Assembly (NCBI RefSeq): GCF_000515255.1
Contig: NZ_KI911559.1
Coordinates: 2,615,660-2,679,659, forward strand
DNA: 64,000 bases
From: Rhodovibrio salinarum DSM 9154
Lineage (GTDB): Bacteria > Pseudomonadota > Alphaproteobacteria > Kiloniellales > Rhodovibrionaceae
Direction of reading: 5' to 3'
Shown: in pieces, positions 56,067-63,479 of the stretch
Layout: the number at the start of each line of letters is the position of its first letter
Numbering within the stretch: position 1 is the stretch's first letter
The notes under the pieces: model-generated
What the model was told of the DNA's origin: nothing
What the model saw: only the letters and a program-made list of their open reading frames with translations
The model's database searches: none
Program-made: the position numbers and the translations under genes

Positions 56067-57572
56067 TTAGGCTAAGCGGCGCAGCGGCTTGCCGTCGTGG
56101 TCTTTCCACCCCTTGAGCAACCGCTGGACGTCGCTGCCCAGCACGACCCGGCTTTCGCGCATGTAGGCTTCGTGGTTGGCTTCGATGTCGTCCAGATCGT
56201 AGCGGTAGTTGACCATGACCCCGGCGGCTTGCCGCAACCCCTTGGCGGAGATGTCGCCCAGCCAGTTGATCCGTTCCAGACGGGCGCCGTTCTTCAGGTG
56301 GAAGCGTGCAACGGGATCGATCGGGGCGCCATTGTCGCGCCGGGCCAGCAGATAACGCGCCGCCAGCCGACGCAACGGCCCCTGGAGGGCCCCCGCCACG
56401 GACGAATCGTCCGGCCACTCGGAACGGGCCAGCAGCACCTGCAAGGCAGCGCGACAACTGTCCTGCCCGCTCAGCCGCGTCAGCGTCTTACGCTCGCCGT
56501 CCTCGACCAGAGCGTCGAGCGTGGCCTCGGGCGCGGTATCCAGCCAGGTCCGAAAGCCCGGTAACGGCGACAGGGTCGCGAACGTCTCGATCTGCGGCAG
56601 TTCGTGCGAAAGGTGGTTCACCACCTGCTTGATCAAATACTCGCCGAAGGAGATCCCTTGCAGACCGCGCTGGGTGTTGGTGATCGAATAAAAGATCGCC
56701 GCCTTGGCGTCCTTGGGGTCATCCTCCGGCGCGCTTTCGTCCAGTAGCCGCTGCACGCTGGCGGCCATCTCCGCCGTCAACGCAACCTCGACGAAGGCGA
56801 GCGGCTCGTCGGGCATGCGCGGATGGAACAGCGCAAAGCAGCGGCGGTCGCTGTCCAGCCGGTTGCGCAGATCGTTCCAGTCACGGATCTCGTGCACCGC
56901 CTCATAGGCGATCAGCTTTTCCAGCAACGCCGCGGGCGAATGCCACGTGATCTGCTGCAGATCGAGAAAGCCAACATCGAACCAGGAAGTCAGCAACTCC
57001 CGCAGGTCGCCTTCCAGCTGGCGCATGTAAGGGTCGTCGCCGCGCGCCTGAAGCAGGTCCGCGCGCAGGTCGACCAAGAACTTCACCCCATCCGGCAAGG
57101 CGTTGAACTGAGTCAGGATCTTGACCCGCGGCGGCACCAGGACGCGGCGCAAGGCCGCCTCGGCGACCAAGCGGTGATCATCGTCCACGGCAGCCTGGAC
57201 CTGGCCGATCGCCTCGGCGACCCGGTCCGGGTCGCAGGCGAACTCGTGCGCGAGAAGCTTCAGGAAGCGCCGTCGACCGTCGGCATCCAGCTCCAGGTAG
57301 CGCCGGCCCAACTCGGCCGCCCGGCCCCGCGCCGACACCTCGCCGCCACGCGCTTCCAGGCACTCGTGCATCAGCCGGCGCAGGGCGCGGCTGTCGTCCG
57401 GCGCGGATTCCGGCACCGACAGACCGACCGTCCGGGCCGCACCGGCCGCAACATCGCGCCAGGCCACCGACAGATTGGCGAGTGTACGCTCGACCAGACC
57501 TGAGCCACGCTCGGCGGCGTCCGCCGCGCTGCCATTGCTGGGCTGGGCGACCGTCGTTTCCTGTTCGCTCAT
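56067..57572 (-). CDS. malonyl-CoA decarboxylase
   Basis: A 501-residue malonyl-CoA decarboxylase, producing acetyl-CoA. It has the all-helical N-terminal domain (RRLMHECLEARGGEVSARGR and RRRFLKLLAHEFACDPDRV) and the acetyltransferase-like catalytic half: RCFALFHPRMPDEPLAFVEV, AIFYSITNTQRGLQGISFGE with the catalytic Ser/His region, FATLSPLPGFRTWL and HLKNGARLERINWLGD. It is the last gene of the malonate transport operon, downstream of the DctM subunit. ATG at 57572 (MSEQETT) chosen. Confidence 0.93.
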   Translation of the reverse strand: MSEQETTVAQPSNGSAADAAERGSGLVERTLANLSVAWRDVAAGAARTVGLSVPESAPDDSRALRRLMHECLEARGGEVSARGRAAELGRRYLELDADGRRRFLKLLAHEFACDPDRVAEAIGQVQAAVDDDHRLVAEAALRRVLVPPRVKILTQFNALPDGVKFLVDLRADLLQARGDDPYMRQLEGDLRELLTSWFDVGFLDLQQITWHSPAALLEKLIAYEAVHEIRDWNDLRNRLDSDRRCFALFHPRMPDEPLAFVEVALTAEMAASVQRLLDESAPEDDPKDAKAAIFYSITNTQRGLQGISFGEYLIKQVVNHLSHELPQIETFATLSPLPGFRTWLDTAPEATLDALVEDGERKTLTRLSGQDSCRAALQVLLARSEWPDDSSVAGALQGPLRRLAARYLLARRDNGAPIDPVARFHLKNGARLERINWLGDISAKGLRQAAGVMVNYRYDLDDIEANHEAYMRESRVVLGSDVQRLLKGWKDHDGKPLRRLA

Positions 57573-57636: not shown

Positions 57637-58956
57637 CTACTGGATCGAGGGCCCCATTGCGGCCTCGGGAAGCCAAAGTGCGATCTCCGGGAAGATGCAC
57701 AGCAGGATGATGCCAACCACCATGCACAGCATATACGGTAGCGCGCCCCAGAGGATCGTGGGGAGCTTCACATCCGGGGCAATCCCGTTGATGACGTAGA
57801 GGTTCAGGCCGACCGGCGGGGTAATCAGGCCGATCTCCAGATTGATTGTCATCATCACCGCGAACCACACCGGGTCGAACCCCAGGTTGGTGATGATCGG
57901 CAGCAGCGTGGGCGCGGTCATCAAAATCACCGCCACCGGGGGCAGAAAGAAGCCAGCCACCAGCAGGAAGAGGTTGACGCACGCCAGCAGCAGGTAAGCA
58001 TTCATGTCCAGCCCGGCGATGTATTGCGCCAAAGACTGCGTGATGAACAGCGACGACATCATGTAGCTGAACAACTCGGCGGCGGCGATGATCATCAGGA
58101 TCATCACCGATTCCTTCATGGAATCCCGGAAAATGATCCAGAGCTGTCGGCCCTTGGTGATGCCGTAGATCACCATGACCAGCACCAGGCACAGCATCGC
58201 GCCCACGCCCGCGGCTTCCGACGGCGTCGCGACACCGCCGTAAAGCACGTAAAGGATGCCGACGATGATCAGCAGGAAGGGGCCGACCTTGGGCAGCATC
58301 GCCAGCTTGTCACGCAGCGAGTAGCTCATCCCCGGCGTGACGAAGCGGTAGCCCTTGCGCCGCGCATCGATCAGCCCCCAGGCGATGAACAGCGCCATCA
58401 GCATGGCGCCCGGCAGCAGGCCCGCCAGGAAGAGCCGCCCGATCGAGGTCTCGGTCGCGATGCCGTAGACGATCATCGTGATCGACGGCGGGATCAGGAT
58501 GCCGAGCGTGCCGCCCGCCGCGATCGACCCGGTCGCCACGCTGGCCGGATAGCCGCGTTGGCGCATCTCGGGGATGCCCATCTTGCCGATCGCTGCACAG
58601 GTCGCCGGCGAAGACCCCGACAAGGCGGCAAAGATGCCGCACGCGCCAATGTTGGAGGCCATCAGGCCACCCGGCACGCCGTACAGCCAGCGGTCAATCG
58701 CCTCGTACAGGTCGGCGCCGGCGCGCGAGGACGCGATCGCCCCACCCATCAGGATGAACATCGGGATCGACAGCAGGGCGAAACTGTCCAATCCGCCGTA
58801 GAAGACGTCCGGCACGAACTCCAGCGCGAAGAAGCCGTCGTAGTAGACCAGAAAGCTCAGCGACACGATGCCGAGCGCGAAGGCAACCGGAATGCCGAGC
58901 AGCAGCAGGAAGATCGTCACGGCCCCGATCAGCAGGCCCAGTTCAAGCTCGCTCAT
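57637..58956 (-). CDS. TRAP transporter large permease (DctM-type), probably malonate
   Basis: A 439-residue large membrane subunit, with about 12 helices and the TRAP signatures LLGIPVAFALGIVSL, SIPMFILMGGAIASSRAGAD, GCGIFAALSGSSPATCAAIG-type region around residues 85-105, and GGTLGILIPPSITMIVYG. It carries out sodium-driven uptake with the DctQ and DctP partners. The position between a malonyl-CoA decarboxylase and the two other TRAP genes argues that malonate is the substrate. Its ATG overlaps the dctQ stop by 4 nt. Confidence 0.9.
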   Translation of the reverse strand: MSELELGLLIGAVTIFLLLLGIPVAFALGIVSLSFLVYYDGFFALEFVPDVFYGGLDSFALLSIPMFILMGGAIASSRAGADLYEAIDRWLYGVPGGLMASNIGACGIFAALSGSSPATCAAIGKMGIPEMRQRGYPASVATGSIAAGGTLGILIPPSITMIVYGIATETSIGRLFLAGLLPGAMLMALFIAWGLIDARRKGYRFVTPGMSYSLRDKLAMLPKVGPFLLIIVGILYVLYGGVATPSEAAGVGAMLCLVLVMVIYGITKGRQLWIIFRDSMKESVMILMIIAAAELFSYMMSSLFITQSLAQYIAGLDMNAYLLLACVNLFLLVAGFFLPPVAVILMTAPTLLPIITNLGFDPVWFAVMMTINLEIGLITPPVGLNLYVINGIAPDVKLPTILWGALPYMLCMVVGIILLCIFPEIALWLPEAAMGPSIQ

Positions 58957-59525
58957 CGATCACGTCCTCCGGACAGTGTCGGCCCGCTGCCCGCCTCTTC
59001 CAGCGCATCGTCCGCTTCCAGATGCGAACTCGAGAACGGTAAGTCACGGCCGGTCAACAAGGCCAAAATGTCGGCTAAGTACTGCACGGCCGTCAGCCCG
59101 AAACCAAGCGGGATCGCCGCGTAGGGCACCCACAGCGGCGGCGCCCAAACCGTCTCCGCCCGCCAGTTGTTGGCCCAGGCCTCGTGCCAGAAGGTCCAGC
59201 CGTAATAGGTCAGCAGCGCGCAGAACCCGAACGACAGCAGCGAGGCGATCAGGGCCAACGCCATCTTGCCGTGATGGCCAAGGTAGAGCGGCAGCAGGTC
59301 GACGTTCACATGACCGCGCTTCAACAACACGTAAGGGCTGCCAATCAGCGTCGCGCCGATAACCGAAAAGGTGACGAATTCGTGCTGCCAGATCGCGCTC
59401 TCGTTAAGGACATAGCGCACGAAGACGAGGTGGCACACGGCCGCGACGGCCGCCGCCAGGAGCCCGGCGGCGATCACGCCGCAGGCGCGCGACAGCCGCC
59501 AGATCAAAACGACGAAGAGGTCCAT
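58953..59525 (-). CDS. TRAP transporter small permease (DctQ-type)
   Basis: A 190-residue protein with four hydrophobic helices. Characteristic is HEFVTFSVIGATLIGSPYVL followed by KRGHVNVDLLPLYLG, which is the DctQ domain. It bridges the DctM channel and the binding protein. I chose the ATG at 59525 (MDLFVVLIWR); the frame runs 34 codons upstream. It couples to dctM by a 4-nt ATGA overlap. A strong hairpin lies between it and the dctP-type gene. Confidence 0.88.
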   Translation of the reverse strand: MDLFVVLIWRLSRACGVIAAGLLAAAVAAVCHLVFVRYVLNESAIWQHEFVTFSVIGATLIGSPYVLLKRGHVNVDLLPLYLGHHGKMALALIASLLSFGFCALLTYYGWTFWHEAWANNWRAETVWAPPLWVPYAAIPLGFGLTAVQYLADILALLTGRDLPFSSSHLEADDALEEAGSGPTLSGGRDR

Positions 59526-59672
59526 GACATCGGCCCCAAAGGCTGGCGCGGAACGGATGGGACGTGCCACCCGGCACAACCGACTGAGTTCGGAGGTGTC
59601 GCAGCGCATGTTCTGTCCCAAAGACAAAGGGTTGCGTCTATTATTTAAGGTATCGCTTCAGACCAGTGGCGT

Positions 59673-59703
59673 GGCCGTCCGGGCCTCGCGCGCCCGGACG
59701 GCC
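59673..59703 (-). terminator. hairpin between the dctP-type and dctQ-type genes
   Basis: A perfect 12-bp stem (GGCCGTCCGGGC / GCCCGGACGGCC, loop 59685-59691) starts 26 nt after the binding-protein stop on the minus strand. There is no U-run right after it, so it probably works as an attenuator or mRNA-stabilising structure, as seen after many periplasmic binding protein genes, rather than a full stop. Confidence 0.5.
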
Positions 59704-59729
59704 GCCAACCTGGAAACCTCGCCGTCAGA

Positions 59730-60740
59730 TCAATCGACGGAGCGCGCCTTCTCGATCAATTCGGCGCCGCCGTCGACTTCCTCGGCGAATTTCTTGTAGG
59801 AGCTTTCCTGCGCCACATCGATCCAGGCGTCGTACTGCTCCTTGGTCATCTCGGTGACCTTCACGCCGGCTTTTTTATAGGTGTCGACCAGCTTCTGATC
59901 CAAACCCTTGGCTTTCTCGAAGAAGAACTCCTCGGCCTTCTCGCCGGCAGTCATCAGGGCTTCCTGCTGCTCTTCGTTCAACTGGTCGAACGAACGCTTG
60001 GACATCAGAATCGGCTCATACATGAACCACAGCGCATAGTCGCCTGGAGGCGTCAGGCAGCTGGACTGCTCGTAGATGCGGTAGCTGACCAGCGACCCAG
60101 AGGAGGTGTTCGCGCCGTCCAGAACGCCGGTATTCATCGCGGAGTAGATTTCCGAGCTCGGCATCGAGTTGATCGACGAACCCGCGGCGGCCAGCATCTG
60201 CTCGAATGCGGGACCGGCCGCGCGCATCACCTTACCCTCGACGCTCTCCGGAGTGGTGACGCAGAAGTCTTTCCCGACGAAGCCGCCGGCCAGCCACGCA
60301 TCCGAAAGCACGACGACACCGGATTCATTGATGATCTGCTTGATCTGGTCCATGAACTCGGAATCGTTCAGGCGCTTTGCATGATCGTGATTCTTCACCA
60401 GACCCGGCATCAGGGTCGCGGAGAACTGCGGGTGCCGGCCGGACGCGTAGTCCAACGGAAAGGCGGAAATGTCCAACTGCCCCTTGGTCATCGCGTCCCA
60501 CTGCTGCTTCGGCTTGAACAGGGAACCACTGGGATAGACCCGGACCTGCAGGTCGACGTCGGCGGCCTCGACCTCCTTTTTGATCATCTCGACCATCTTG
60601 CCGCGAACATCGTCCTGCGGCCACTGGTGCGAAGCACGCAGCCGCTCGGCCGATGCCGGCGCGCTGAGCGCGACCACCGCCGCCAAGGCGACGCCGGTCG
60701 TAAGCACACTGCCCAGGCTTGGGCGCTTGAAGTGTTTCAT
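59730..60740 (-). CDS. TRAP transporter solute-binding protein (DctP-type), probably malonate
   Basis: A 336-residue periplasmic binding protein. A signal peptide (to about residue 29, ALSAPASAE) is followed by DctP-fold segments LRASHQWPQDDVRGKMVEMI, VRVYPSGSLFKPKQQWDAMT, KVMRAAGPAFEQMLAAAG, and SGSLVSYRIYEQSSCLTPPG. The arginine of the MRAAG segment commonly holds a carboxylate. I chose the ATG at 60740, 10 nt after a GGGAGG ribosome site; the longer GTG start would bury that site. First gene of the operon that ends with the decarboxylase. Confidence 0.9.
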   Translation of the reverse strand: MKHFKRPSLGSVLTTGVALAAVVALSAPASAERLRASHQWPQDDVRGKMVEMIKKEVEAADVDLQVRVYPSGSLFKPKQQWDAMTKGQLDISAFPLDYASGRHPQFSATLMPGLVKNHDHAKRLNDSEFMDQIKQIINESGVVVLSDAWLAGGFVGKDFCVTTPESVEGKVMRAAGPAFEQMLAAAGSSINSMPSSEIYSAMNTGVLDGANTSSGSLVSYRIYEQSSCLTPPGDYALWFMYEPILMSKRSFDQLNEEQQEALMTAGEKAEEFFFEKAKGLDQKLVDTYKKAGVKVTEMTKEQYDAWIDVAQESSYKKFAEEVDGGAELIEKARSVD

Positions 60741-60938
60741 GTCGATGGTACCTCCCACAGACTTTTATCGATTTACGCCCGGCGGACTGGACTTTGCGCC
60801 TTCGCAACCGGGCTGGATGGAGACGGCTCTTGTCGGCCGATTGATCAACCGCCGGCGTTGGACCCGGCGCCCCGGACTGACACCCTGCGCCGCCCGGTCA
60901 GCCTAGGAAAGCGTAAACGTGGGTCTGAAACAAGCAAT

Positions 60939-60952
60939 CTTTGTATACAAAG
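60939..60952. promoter_or_regulatory. probable MatR operator, 14-bp palindrome
   Basis: CTTTGTATACAAAG is a perfect palindrome in the divergent region between the malonate transporter operon and the GntR regulator gene. Flanking CAATCT and AGATTG extend the dyad imperfectly. GntR/FadR-type regulators bind such short TGTATACA-like dyads, and rhizobial MatR is reported to bind a TTGTATACAA-type site. It overlaps the -35 region of the proposed regulator promoter. Confidence 0.75.
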
Positions 60953-60969
60953 TAGACAAGATTGCATAA
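60941..60969 (+). promoter_or_regulatory. candidate promoter of the GntR regulator gene
   Basis: TTGTAT at 60941-60946 and CATAAA at 60965-60970, 18 nt apart, form a plausible sigma-70-type promoter facing the regulator gene. The -35 element lies inside the palindrome, so binding there would block transcription (autorepression). No equally clear pair faces the transporter operon. Confidence 0.45.
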
Positions 60970-61005
60970 AATCATCCAGAAAGCGGGCGACACGGAAAAA
61001 CCGCC

Positions 61006-61743
61006 ATGGTCCCGGACAGGACAGCCCACAACGCGAACGTGCAAGATAAACCTGCCACAGCCCCCCGCGGACGCAAGCCGCGACTCGCCGACCGGTTGCG
61101 CTGCCAACTGGAGGAAGAGATTGCCACGGGCCAGCTCGCCGGTGGCACGCGGCTGGATGAAGCAGGCCTAGCAAAACGCTTCGGCGTCTCCCGAACCCCG
61201 GTACGAGAAGCTTTGAGCAGCCTCGCGTCCGCCGGACTGGTCGAGACGCGCCCGCGCCAAGGAGCCGTCGTCGCCGGGCTGTCGCTTAGCGACTTGATCC
61301 AGATGTTCGAAGTGATGGCAGAGCTCGAAGCGCTGTGTACCCGCCTCGCCGCGCGCCGGATGACCGAGGCCGAACGCACGCAATTGGAGCAGACGCTGCA
61401 GGCCTGCATCGACGCAGCCGACCCGGCGCGGCCGAACGACTACTATGACGCCAACCTCGCCTTCCACGAGGCGATCTACGCCGGCAGTCACAACGCCTAT
61501 CTGGCAGAGCAGACGCGCCAGCTACGCAACCGACTGCAACCCTATCGGCGCACGCAGCTGGCCGGACTGGGGCGGATCGAGACCTCCTGCCGCGAACATG
61601 CCGAGATCGTCGACGCAATCCGGCAGGCCGACGCCATCTCCGCGGAAGGCGCGATGCGCCGACATGTCACCATCCAGGCGGACACATTCGCCGAACTTGC
61701 CGCCCATTCGCCCGAGCAAAGAACGGCCGTCGACAGCGCTTGA
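61006..61743 (+). CDS. GntR-family regulator, probable malonate regulator MatR
   Basis: A 245-residue regulator of the FCD/FadR subgroup. The N-terminal winged helix is RLADRLRCQLEEEIATGQL, then GTRLDEAGLAKRFGVSRTPV and REALSSLASAGLVETRPRQG. The C-terminal FCD domain has the metal-binding residues in DYYDANLAFHEAIYAGSHNA and CREHAEIVDAIRQADA with RRHV. Position between the TRAP-malonyl-CoA decarboxylase operon and the malonyl-CoA synthetase gene matches MatR. A palindrome upstream of its own start is the likely operator. Only the effector (malonate or a CoA ester) is unverified. Confidence 0.9.
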   Translation: MVPDRTAHNANVQDKPATAPRGRKPRLADRLRCQLEEEIATGQLAGGTRLDEAGLAKRFGVSRTPVREALSSLASAGLVETRPRQGAVVAGLSLSDLIQMFEVMAELEALCTRLAARRMTEAERTQLEQTLQACIDAADPARPNDYYDANLAFHEAIYAGSHNAYLAEQTRQLRNRLQPYRRTQLAGLGRIETSCREHAEIVDAIRQADAISAEGAMRRHVTIQADTFAELAAHSPEQRTAVDSA

Positions 61744-61845: not shown

Positions 61846-63375
61846 ATGAGTGGCAACCTCTACGAACGCTTCCTCGCCGTCTTCTCCGAACGCGGTGACG
61901 CCCCGGCCATCGAGCTCGCCGACGGAACGACGTGGTCGTATGCCCAGTTGACGGATCAGGTCGGCCGTCTGGCCCGCCGGTTGGTCGAGGCCGGCGTGGA
62001 ACCGGGCGACCGCGTGGCCATCCAGGTCGATAAGTCGCCGCAAGCGCTGTTCACCTACCTCGCCTGTTTCCAGGCCGGCGCGGTCTATCTGCCGCTCAAC
62101 ACCGCCTACACTGGTCCGGAAGTCTCGTACTTCCTGTCGGACGCGCAGCCGCGCTGCTTCGTCTGCGATCCCCGGCGCGCTGACGAGCTGGCGCCGATCG
62201 CGGGGGAAGCCGGCGTGAGCGCGGTCTTGAACATGGACCCGACCGGCGCTGGCACACTGACGGATGGCTTGGACGCCGTCACGCCGATGCGCGAGGTGGT
62301 GGAACGCGACCCCGACGACCTGGCGGCGATCTGCTACACCTCCGGCACCACCGGGCGCTCCAAGGGCGCGATGCTGAGCCACCGCAACCTGGAGTCCAAC
62401 GCCCGCACGCTGCACAGCTACTGGGGCTTCCAGGACGGCGACGTGCTGCTGCATGCCCTGCCGCTGTTCCACGTCCACGGCCTGTTCGTTGCCTCCAATA
62501 CCGCCCTTCTGAACGGCTCGAAGATGCTCTTCCTGCCCAAGTTCGACGCCGATCAGGTCACGCGCCTGCTGCCCAAGGCGAGCGTGATGATGGGCGTGCC
62601 GACCTTCTACGTCCGCCTGCTGGAGCGCGACGACTTCACCAAGGACCTTGTGGCGAAGATGCGCCTGTTCGTCTCCGGCTCCGCGCCGCTGCAGCCGGAA
62701 ACCTGGCGCCAGTTCAAGGAGCGCACCGGCTTCGAGATCCTGGAGCGCTACGGCATGACGGAAGCCGGCATGATCACCTCCAACCCGCTGAACGGCGAAC
62801 GCCGCCCCGGCACCGTCGGCTTCCCGCTGCCGAACGTGCAGGTGCGCGTCGCTAAGGAGGACGGCACGGTGCTGGGCACCGAGGAGATCGGCATTCTGGA
62901 GATCAAAGGCCCCAACCTGTTCCAGGGCTACTGGAACAAGCCCGAAAAGACGGCCGAGGAATTCCGTCCGGACGGCTTCTTCATCACCGGCGACAACGCC
63001 AAGATCGACGATCGCGGCTACGTCCACATCGTCGGCCGGGCGAAGGACCTGATCATCTCCGGCGGCTACAATGTCTATCCCAAGGAGATCGAACTGACCC
63101 TCGACGCGATGAACGGGGTCAAGGAATCCGCTGTGTTCGGTGTTCCGCACCCGGATTTCGGCGAAGCCGTCACGGCCATGGTTGTAGCCGAGGCCGGCAA
63201 GGAAGATACGCTGAGCGAAAAGGGCCTGATCGACGCGTGCCGTACCCAGATTGCCGGCTATAAAACGCCCAAGCGGATCTTCTTCGCCGACACATTGCCG
63301 CGCAACACCATGGGCAAGGTCCAGAAGGCGCAACTGCGCAGCGAGTACGAAAGCACTTTCCAGGGCGCGGCGTAG
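61846..63375 (+). CDS. malonyl-CoA synthetase (MatB)
   Basis: A 509-residue AMP-forming acyl-CoA synthetase. AMP-binding motif CYTSGTTGRSKGAMLSHRN, then LPLFHVHGLFVASNTALLNG, the SGSAPLQPETWRQF and RYGMTEAGMITSNP loops, GDNAKIDDRGYVHIVGRAKD and the C-terminal lysine region FADTLPRNTMGKVQKAQLR. Its context and length match MatB, which activates malonate with CoA. Malonyl-CoA is then decarboxylated by the enzyme at 56067-57572. Ribosome binding site GGGGAG is upstream. It may be transcribed with the regulator gene. Confidence 0.9.
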   Translation: MSGNLYERFLAVFSERGDAPAIELADGTTWSYAQLTDQVGRLARRLVEAGVEPGDRVAIQVDKSPQALFTYLACFQAGAVYLPLNTAYTGPEVSYFLSDAQPRCFVCDPRRADELAPIAGEAGVSAVLNMDPTGAGTLTDGLDAVTPMREVVERDPDDLAAICYTSGTTGRSKGAMLSHRNLESNARTLHSYWGFQDGDVLLHALPLFHVHGLFVASNTALLNGSKMLFLPKFDADQVTRLLPKASVMMGVPTFYVRLLERDDFTKDLVAKMRLFVSGSAPLQPETWRQFKERTGFEILERYGMTEAGMITSNPLNGERRPGTVGFPLPNVQVRVAKEDGTVLGTEEIGILEIKGPNLFQGYWNKPEKTAEEFRPDGFFITGDNAKIDDRGYVHIVGRAKDLIISGGYNVYPKEIELTLDAMNGVKESAVFGVPHPDFGEAVTAMVVAEAGKEDTLSEKGLIDACRTQIAGYKTPKRIFFADTLPRNTMGKVQKAQLRSEYESTFQGAA

Positions 63376-63423: not shown

Positions 63424-63479
63424 GCTCAGCATGAAGTAAGGCCTTTATCTATCTGGAAAAGCTAGACTTCATGCTGAGC
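63424..63479. repeat. long inverted repeat downstream of matB
   Basis: GCTCAGCATGAAGT (63424-63437) and ACTTCATGCTGAGC (63466-63479) are perfect 14-bp inverted copies separated by 28 bases. A U-run is missing, so it is not a standard terminator. It lies in the intergenic region before the penicillin-acylase gene. Confidence 0.7.

Follow-up and report, generated by a model that had tools for sequence, protein, structure and literature searches.

What controls the malonate locus of Rhodovibrio salinarum DSM 9154, and is the palindrome between its divergent operons the operator of the neighboring regulator? In the window, by which we mean the whole 64,000-nucleotide stretch of DNA that was analysed, a 265-bp gap (60741-61005) has matP on one side (minus strand) and a GntR/FCD regulator gene on the other (plus strand), with the order matP, matQ, matM, matA leftwards and matR, matB rightwards (Table 1). 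An earlier note, made from the sequence alone, had named a TRAP operon ending in malonyl-CoA decarboxylase, a GntR regulator and malonyl-CoA synthetase, and these identities hold by family match (malonyl-CoA decarboxylase (MCD), DctM, DctQ, DctP, GntR with an FCD domain, malonyl-CoA synthase). The regulator gene, encoding a GntR wHTH and an FCD domain, adjoins the malonate genes. Residues N150, H154, H198 and H220 are invariant in an alignment of 11 regulators, in agreement with the FCD metal/carboxylate site.

Table 1. Coordinates of genes and predicted control elements of the malonate locus in the window.
Feature	Position	Strand	Basis
matA, malonyl-CoA decarboxylase (MCD), last in leftward operon	56067-57572	-	PF05292, PF17408
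matM/dctM, TRAP large permease	57637-58956	-	PF06808, TIGR00786
matQ/dctQ, TRAP small permease	58953-59609	-	PF04290
matP/dctP, TRAP solute-binding protein	59730-60740	-	PF03480
-21 copy position of relatives; here TGGGTCTGAA, 4/10, probably eroded	60920-60929		profiles, window match
Possible matP -35, TTGTTT, 7 nt from core	60928-60933	-	inference, weak in window
Perfect 14-bp dyad CTTTGTATACAAAG, predicted main MatR operator	60939-60952		palindrome and conservation
Conserved 10-bp core TTGTATACAA	60941-60950		conservation
Candidate matR promoter TATACA-17-TAAAAT (-35 60944-60949, -10 60967-60972)	60944-60972	+	consensus match only
Possible extra half-site TAGACAA, 6/7 of TATACAA	60953-60959		weak offset enrichment
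Second, degenerate operator copy TTGCATAAAA, 8/10, +21 bp towards matR	60962-60971		profiles, window match
matR, GntR-family regulator with FCD effector domain	61006-61743	+	GntR wHTH and FCD match
matB, malonyl-CoA synthase	61846-63375	+	NF005702, 775 bits against cut-off 558

Judging from its sequence and those of related loci, the dyad in the gap is very probably a MatR/GtrA-type operator, which is a known kind. Measured from its center, the matP ATG is 205 bp away and the matR ATG 60 bp. The locus had been described as having a single perfect palindrome; the perfect 14-bp dyad stands, but it is not single, as a degenerate copy lies 21 bp off. Palindrome length is weak evidence: dinucleotide-shuffling the gap 5000 times gave a perfect palindrome of at least 14 bp in 98 cases (about 2%), and the 64-kb window contains nine perfect 14-bp palindromes. 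What relatives conserve is the 10-bp core; the outermost C/G pair of the dyad departs from the T/A of the family consensus. An outer repeat, GCAATC/GATTGC (60934-60939 and 60960-60965), was considered and rejected since its columns are mostly unconserved in 28 mat-linked loci, the exceptions being where the repeat touches the edge of the core and the +21 copy.

The evidence that carries the assignment is conservation. The homologue set comprised 110 regulators, the window's own included, with 30 of the loci kept from a search of 385 class genomes (58 of which matched at 1e-30) and the other 80 being the best 80 of 594 relatives in a named genome collection. Loci were counted as mat-linked on a MatA match above 100 bits, MatB at 50% identity or MatP at 45% identity. 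By neighbors, 30 were mat-linked, 13 lay beside malonate decarboxylase (Mdc) alpha, four had a TRAP transporter only and 63 had neither; the last class may hide malonate genes farther away, as flanks were about 5 kb at named loci and 1.5 kb at others. Mdc alpha matched 15 loci, two of which (L043, L064) were already in the mat-linked count; a Pfam check of the family, made at one locus (L046), gave PF16957. The best core match was scored in about 320 nt upstream of each regulator.

Conservation of the dyad in related loci had been set beforehand as a test of the proposal, and the core proved to be conserved. Counting the window, 31 of the 43 malonate-linked homologues have it with at most one mismatch, compared with 5 of the 67 others (Fisher 1.2e-12, kinship ignored), and 18/43 have it exactly, compared with 0/67 (Fisher 3.1e-9, kinship ignored). 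The 30 mat-linked loci, window included, divide into 15 exact, eight with one, five with two, one with three and one with four mismatches; without the window, 14 are exact, eight have one, five have two and two are worse, where shuffles of those 29 regions expect 0 exact, 0.23 with one and 3.2 with two mismatches. Among the 13 Mdc-linked loci, three are exact and five, three and two carry one, two and three mismatches, respectively, and of the four TRAP-only loci one carries two and three carry three. No exact core was found in the 63 loci with neither neighbor (five with one mismatch, 17 with two, 41 worse). With this conservation, the dyad is strongly supported as an operator of the adjacent GntR regulator.

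The association is not absolute. Twelve of the 43 malonate-linked loci have a core with at least two mismatches, and 22 of the 63 loci with neither neighbor have one with at most two, where shuffles of a very similar 67-locus set expect about 3.6. An exact core is present twice in the genome (4,176,524 bases); allowing up to one mismatch gives 15 places, compared with 10 for a reversed control pattern. The other exact core (G000:C1:1778102-1778111) lies upstream of a second GntR/FCD gene (L113:6267-7133, minus strand), whose product is 30% identical to MatR and which adjoins a MOFRL/DUF4147 glycerate-kinase-like gene and a pyruvate kinase gene. The core is therefore not exclusive to malonate genes and is in part common to regulators of this kind, and cross-talk between the malonate locus and the second GntR/FCD gene is possible.

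In a midpoint-rooted regulator tree of 110 rows, the window regulator groups with regulators of other malonate loci: the 43 malonate-linked regulators and eight others (51 rows) fall on one side of a branch whose support, 94/80, is just below the 95/80 mark, the Sinorhizobium meliloti and Rhizobium leguminosarum regulators lying outside this tree. A search with MatP gave 22 places in 398 genomes besides the window's own, three of them loci already in the set, with core mismatches of 0 in six, one in seven, two in three and three or four in six. Two further observations were made among the homologues. In three related genomes (L017, L020, L021) the MatR-like regulators are accompanied by another near-palindrome, AAGTGTATATACTT, and the TRAP and MatB-like genes are distant. 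The mat locus regulator of L080, a record titled Nocardioides marinus (Actinomycetota), nests among Rhodobacterales rows, which may be due to transfer or contamination.

The core is also shared with a studied locus. On S. meliloti 1021 pSymA, matR is divergent from matP-matQ-matM-matA-matB and the matR-matP gap contains the exact core; as in the window, there are TRAP genes and the core lies between matR and matP (MatP 58%, MatR 45%). The R. leguminosarum core has one mismatch in CB782 and two in Vaf-108, and the S. meliloti and R. leguminosarum regulators are 45-48% identical to MatR of the window. The mat loci of both genera (matRABC; matPQMAB) resemble the window in that malonate uptake and MatA/MatB genes diverge from a GntR/FCD regulator gene; they differ in that the window has matB behind matR rather than behind matA, and its array has the center and +21 copies only. 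Plasmid records with a matA relative numbered 237, and 12 were taken for variety among the matches listed (40). One (L143) was left out as a regulator match was absent, and of the remaining 11 loci 10 have at most two core mismatches and one (L142) has six. In the part of PMC5237526 that was available, matR is the GntR-type regulator gene of matRABC, and a title cited there (Chen 2010) has the S. meliloti malonate TRAP transporter regulated by GtrA. The available portions of PMC2018728 and PMC12303837 contain nothing on a MatR operator.

Beyond the core, related loci carry further operator-like copies at a fixed pitch. Offsets from 10 to 50 or 55 bp on either side of the core were profiled against base-wise (not dinucleotide) shuffling of each flank, after dropping loci with more than two core mismatches (2/30 mat-linked, 3/13 TRAP-linked, 6/22 MatP-found, 1/11 plasmid) and three more MatP-found places that repeated loci already in the set. 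Four MatP-found places (L121, L122, L130, L133) had no MatR match in the stretch, and L130 stayed in the profile. In each of the four locus sets +21 and -21 are the top two offsets: mat-linked (n=28), z 9.6 and 6.0, values that none of 1000 flank shuffles reached at any offset; other TRAP-linked (n=10), z 5.2 and 7.3; MatP-found (n=13), z 5.7 and 4.6; and plasmid (n=10), z 4.3 and 6.7, with a family-wise P of 0.003. When pooled and thinned to 56 non-redundant loci out of 61, they reach z 13.3 and 11.0. Each half is enriched alone (TTGTATA z 11.1 and 9.3; TATACAA z 8.7 and 8.1), and G-N4-C is kept at +21 in 24/56 and at -21 in 20/56, against 2 at the median offset. The control consisted of 24 "neither" loci with a core-like match, two of which (L042, L078) turned out to be Mdc-linked. 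The leading offset there is +20 (z 3.3, family-wise P 0.07); z is 2.9 at +21 (P 0.17), and -21 comes 54th.

In the window, the +21 copy is the second-best core match in the gap, after the dyad core; a match of at least 8/10 at one fixed offset has a chance of 0.00023 given base composition, and the tandem 21-bp pattern with at most two mismatches occurs in the genome here only. Two of the three copies of the array, repeated sites on one helix face, are thus present in the window. Erosion of the -21 copy in the window may leave matP under weaker control by this array. By reading of the sequence, the right-hand copy of S. meliloti is off by one base, at 22 bp. The half-site position next to the dyad (Table 1), with halves tested apart in 56 loci, ranks sixth of 75 with z 3.7 (family-wise P 0.004), a weak enrichment well short of that of the 21-bp copies. 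Copies at -42 are weak, with family-wise P of 0.034 in the plasmid set, 0.17 pooled and 0.024 as a half-site. Further offsets passing in the pooled set (+19, -12, -15 and -16; z 3.6-4.8) include three (-12, -15 and -16) that overlap a GTCAA stretch. Mean flank matches are 3.6 left and 4.6 right where matB lies on the matR side (n=9) and 5.6 left and 5.1 right where it lies on the matP side (n=8), numbers too small to link the side of matB to flank strength.

The candidate matR promoter is the sole consensus candidate in 60600-61200, where shuffles average 0.1. The dyad had been placed on the -35 of such a promoter, and TATACA indeed falls inside it, while the -10 TAAAAT overlaps the second copy. 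Autorepression fits this overlap of dyad and candidate promoter. Consensus matching found no leftward promoter in 60600-61200. In relatives, GTCAA (leftward TTGAC) lies 5 nt beyond the core in 19/56 loci and no offset has more than one TTGAC pointing towards matR among the 56; this box is likely the -35 of the mat promoter there, and the -21 copy falls in the spacer of that presumed promoter. The window has no GTCAA/TTGAC box at the 5-nt spacing; its closest candidate is TTGTTT, at 7 nt. The matB gene starts 102 nt past matR, and the top core match in the gap between them is a poor 6/10; matB therefore probably relies on the matR transcript.

Taken as a whole, we regard as probable a model in which the dyad is the main MatR operator, both divergent transcripts are controlled from it, a second dimer binds at +21 and malonate causes release. 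A MatR dimer would sit on the core. The weaker copy, displaced by 21 bp or two helical turns in the direction of matR, would take a second dimer, side by side with the first on the same DNA face. Both elements of the candidate matR promoter, -35 and -10, would then be covered by the pair, giving autorepression, with matB controlled by read-through from matR. The presumed matP promoter would have the same dimers immediately upstream of it, and relatives that keep a good -21 copy would have their mat promoter closed as well. Malonate (or a close carboxylate) in the FCD pocket would weaken binding and open the locus. We infer binding, cooperativity, repression and the effector role of malonate from DNA and protein sequences. 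Support for malonate as the signal is indirect, the best sequence evidence being that one regulator group and its core lie beside both MatA/MatB and the unrelated malonate decarboxylase Mdc.

Other readings of the same conservation were weighed. MatR might use the core as its operator and yet be a malonate-dependent activator, or a dual regulator, at the mat promoter, repressing only matR. The core of relatives does lie directly upstream of the TTGAC box, with its center near -46 if the spacer is 17, and where GTCAA is present 5 nt beyond the core, the core alone would leave that promoter uncovered. However, the -21 copy between that -35 and the presumed -10 suits occlusion, and the window is without a TTGAC box at that spacing. 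FCD regulators are mostly repressors. We therefore hold activation to be unlikely.

Far less plausible is cross-regulation in place of malonate control, with another GntR/FCD protein of the genome as the main reader of a dyad that would be a generic FadR-type site. The identical core upstream of the GntR/FCD gene beside the glycerate-kinase-like gene would fit such a site, but the core is enriched at malonate-linked loci, the dyad adjoins matR and the tandem pattern is unique to this genomic place. We give still less weight to a chance palindrome in an A+T-rich promoter patch, with the +21 and -21 signals being promoter -10 boxes. Palindrome length and the overlap of the +21 copy with the -10-like TAAAAT are compatible with this reading; against it stand the conservation of the core in related loci, the signal on both sides of it and a flanking consensus (56 loci) that is like the operator, keeping its G, C and both halves, and unlike TATAAT.

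The preferred reading, MatR acting on the dyad and its +21 copy, can be compared with known GntR systems. In the accessible part of Suvorova 2015 (PMC4494728), FadR-subfamily operators have TKGT/ACMA boxes, with 2 nt between GT and AC for MdcY and others, and weaker half-sites 7-12 nt from the site center. The window palindrome carries these boxes at the same 2-nt spacing, as a single site in a TF divergon, and a weak half-site is also present; unlike the sites described in that part, the main extras here are degenerate but fuller copies that flank the core on either side with a pitch of 21 bp. According to the portion of PMC8012715 at hand, three dimers of the GntR-type repressor NanR of E. 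coli assemble cooperatively on (GGTATA)3 and the nutrient releases them. The MatR array is similar in having a GntR-type regulator and repeated sites, on which MatR dimers would line up in a comparable way, and it differs in the repeat. What is added beyond a known kind of operator is the predicted 21-bp array, the core operator being of a known kind. No description of this array was found among the matches listed, and the most relevant MatR/GtrA papers lie outside that literature.

We see roughly even prospects that a three-operator array is conserved in this regulator group, in which a strong center would nucleate binding that spreads to the 21-bp flanks and shuts two divergent promoters, serves the unrelated MatAB and Mdc systems alike, and is tuned by lineages through erosion of one flank. 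A family-wide operator with defined geometry could be used for finding malonate regulons and building malonate sensors. Cooperative binding at the 21-bp array, if it occurs, would account for the regulation of two divergent operons at different strengths from a single control region.

Two structures outside the control region were also observed. The matP-matQ gap (59610-59729, minus strand) contains a strong hairpin of -49.1 kcal/mol, with 5 of 200 shuffles equally stable, which possibly sets the ratio of binding protein to permease. Past matB, a long inverted repeat (63424-63479) has 23-nt arms that are 83% complementary around a 10-nt spacer; a 14-base arm end has no further exact copy in the genome, and the repeat is perhaps a terminator.
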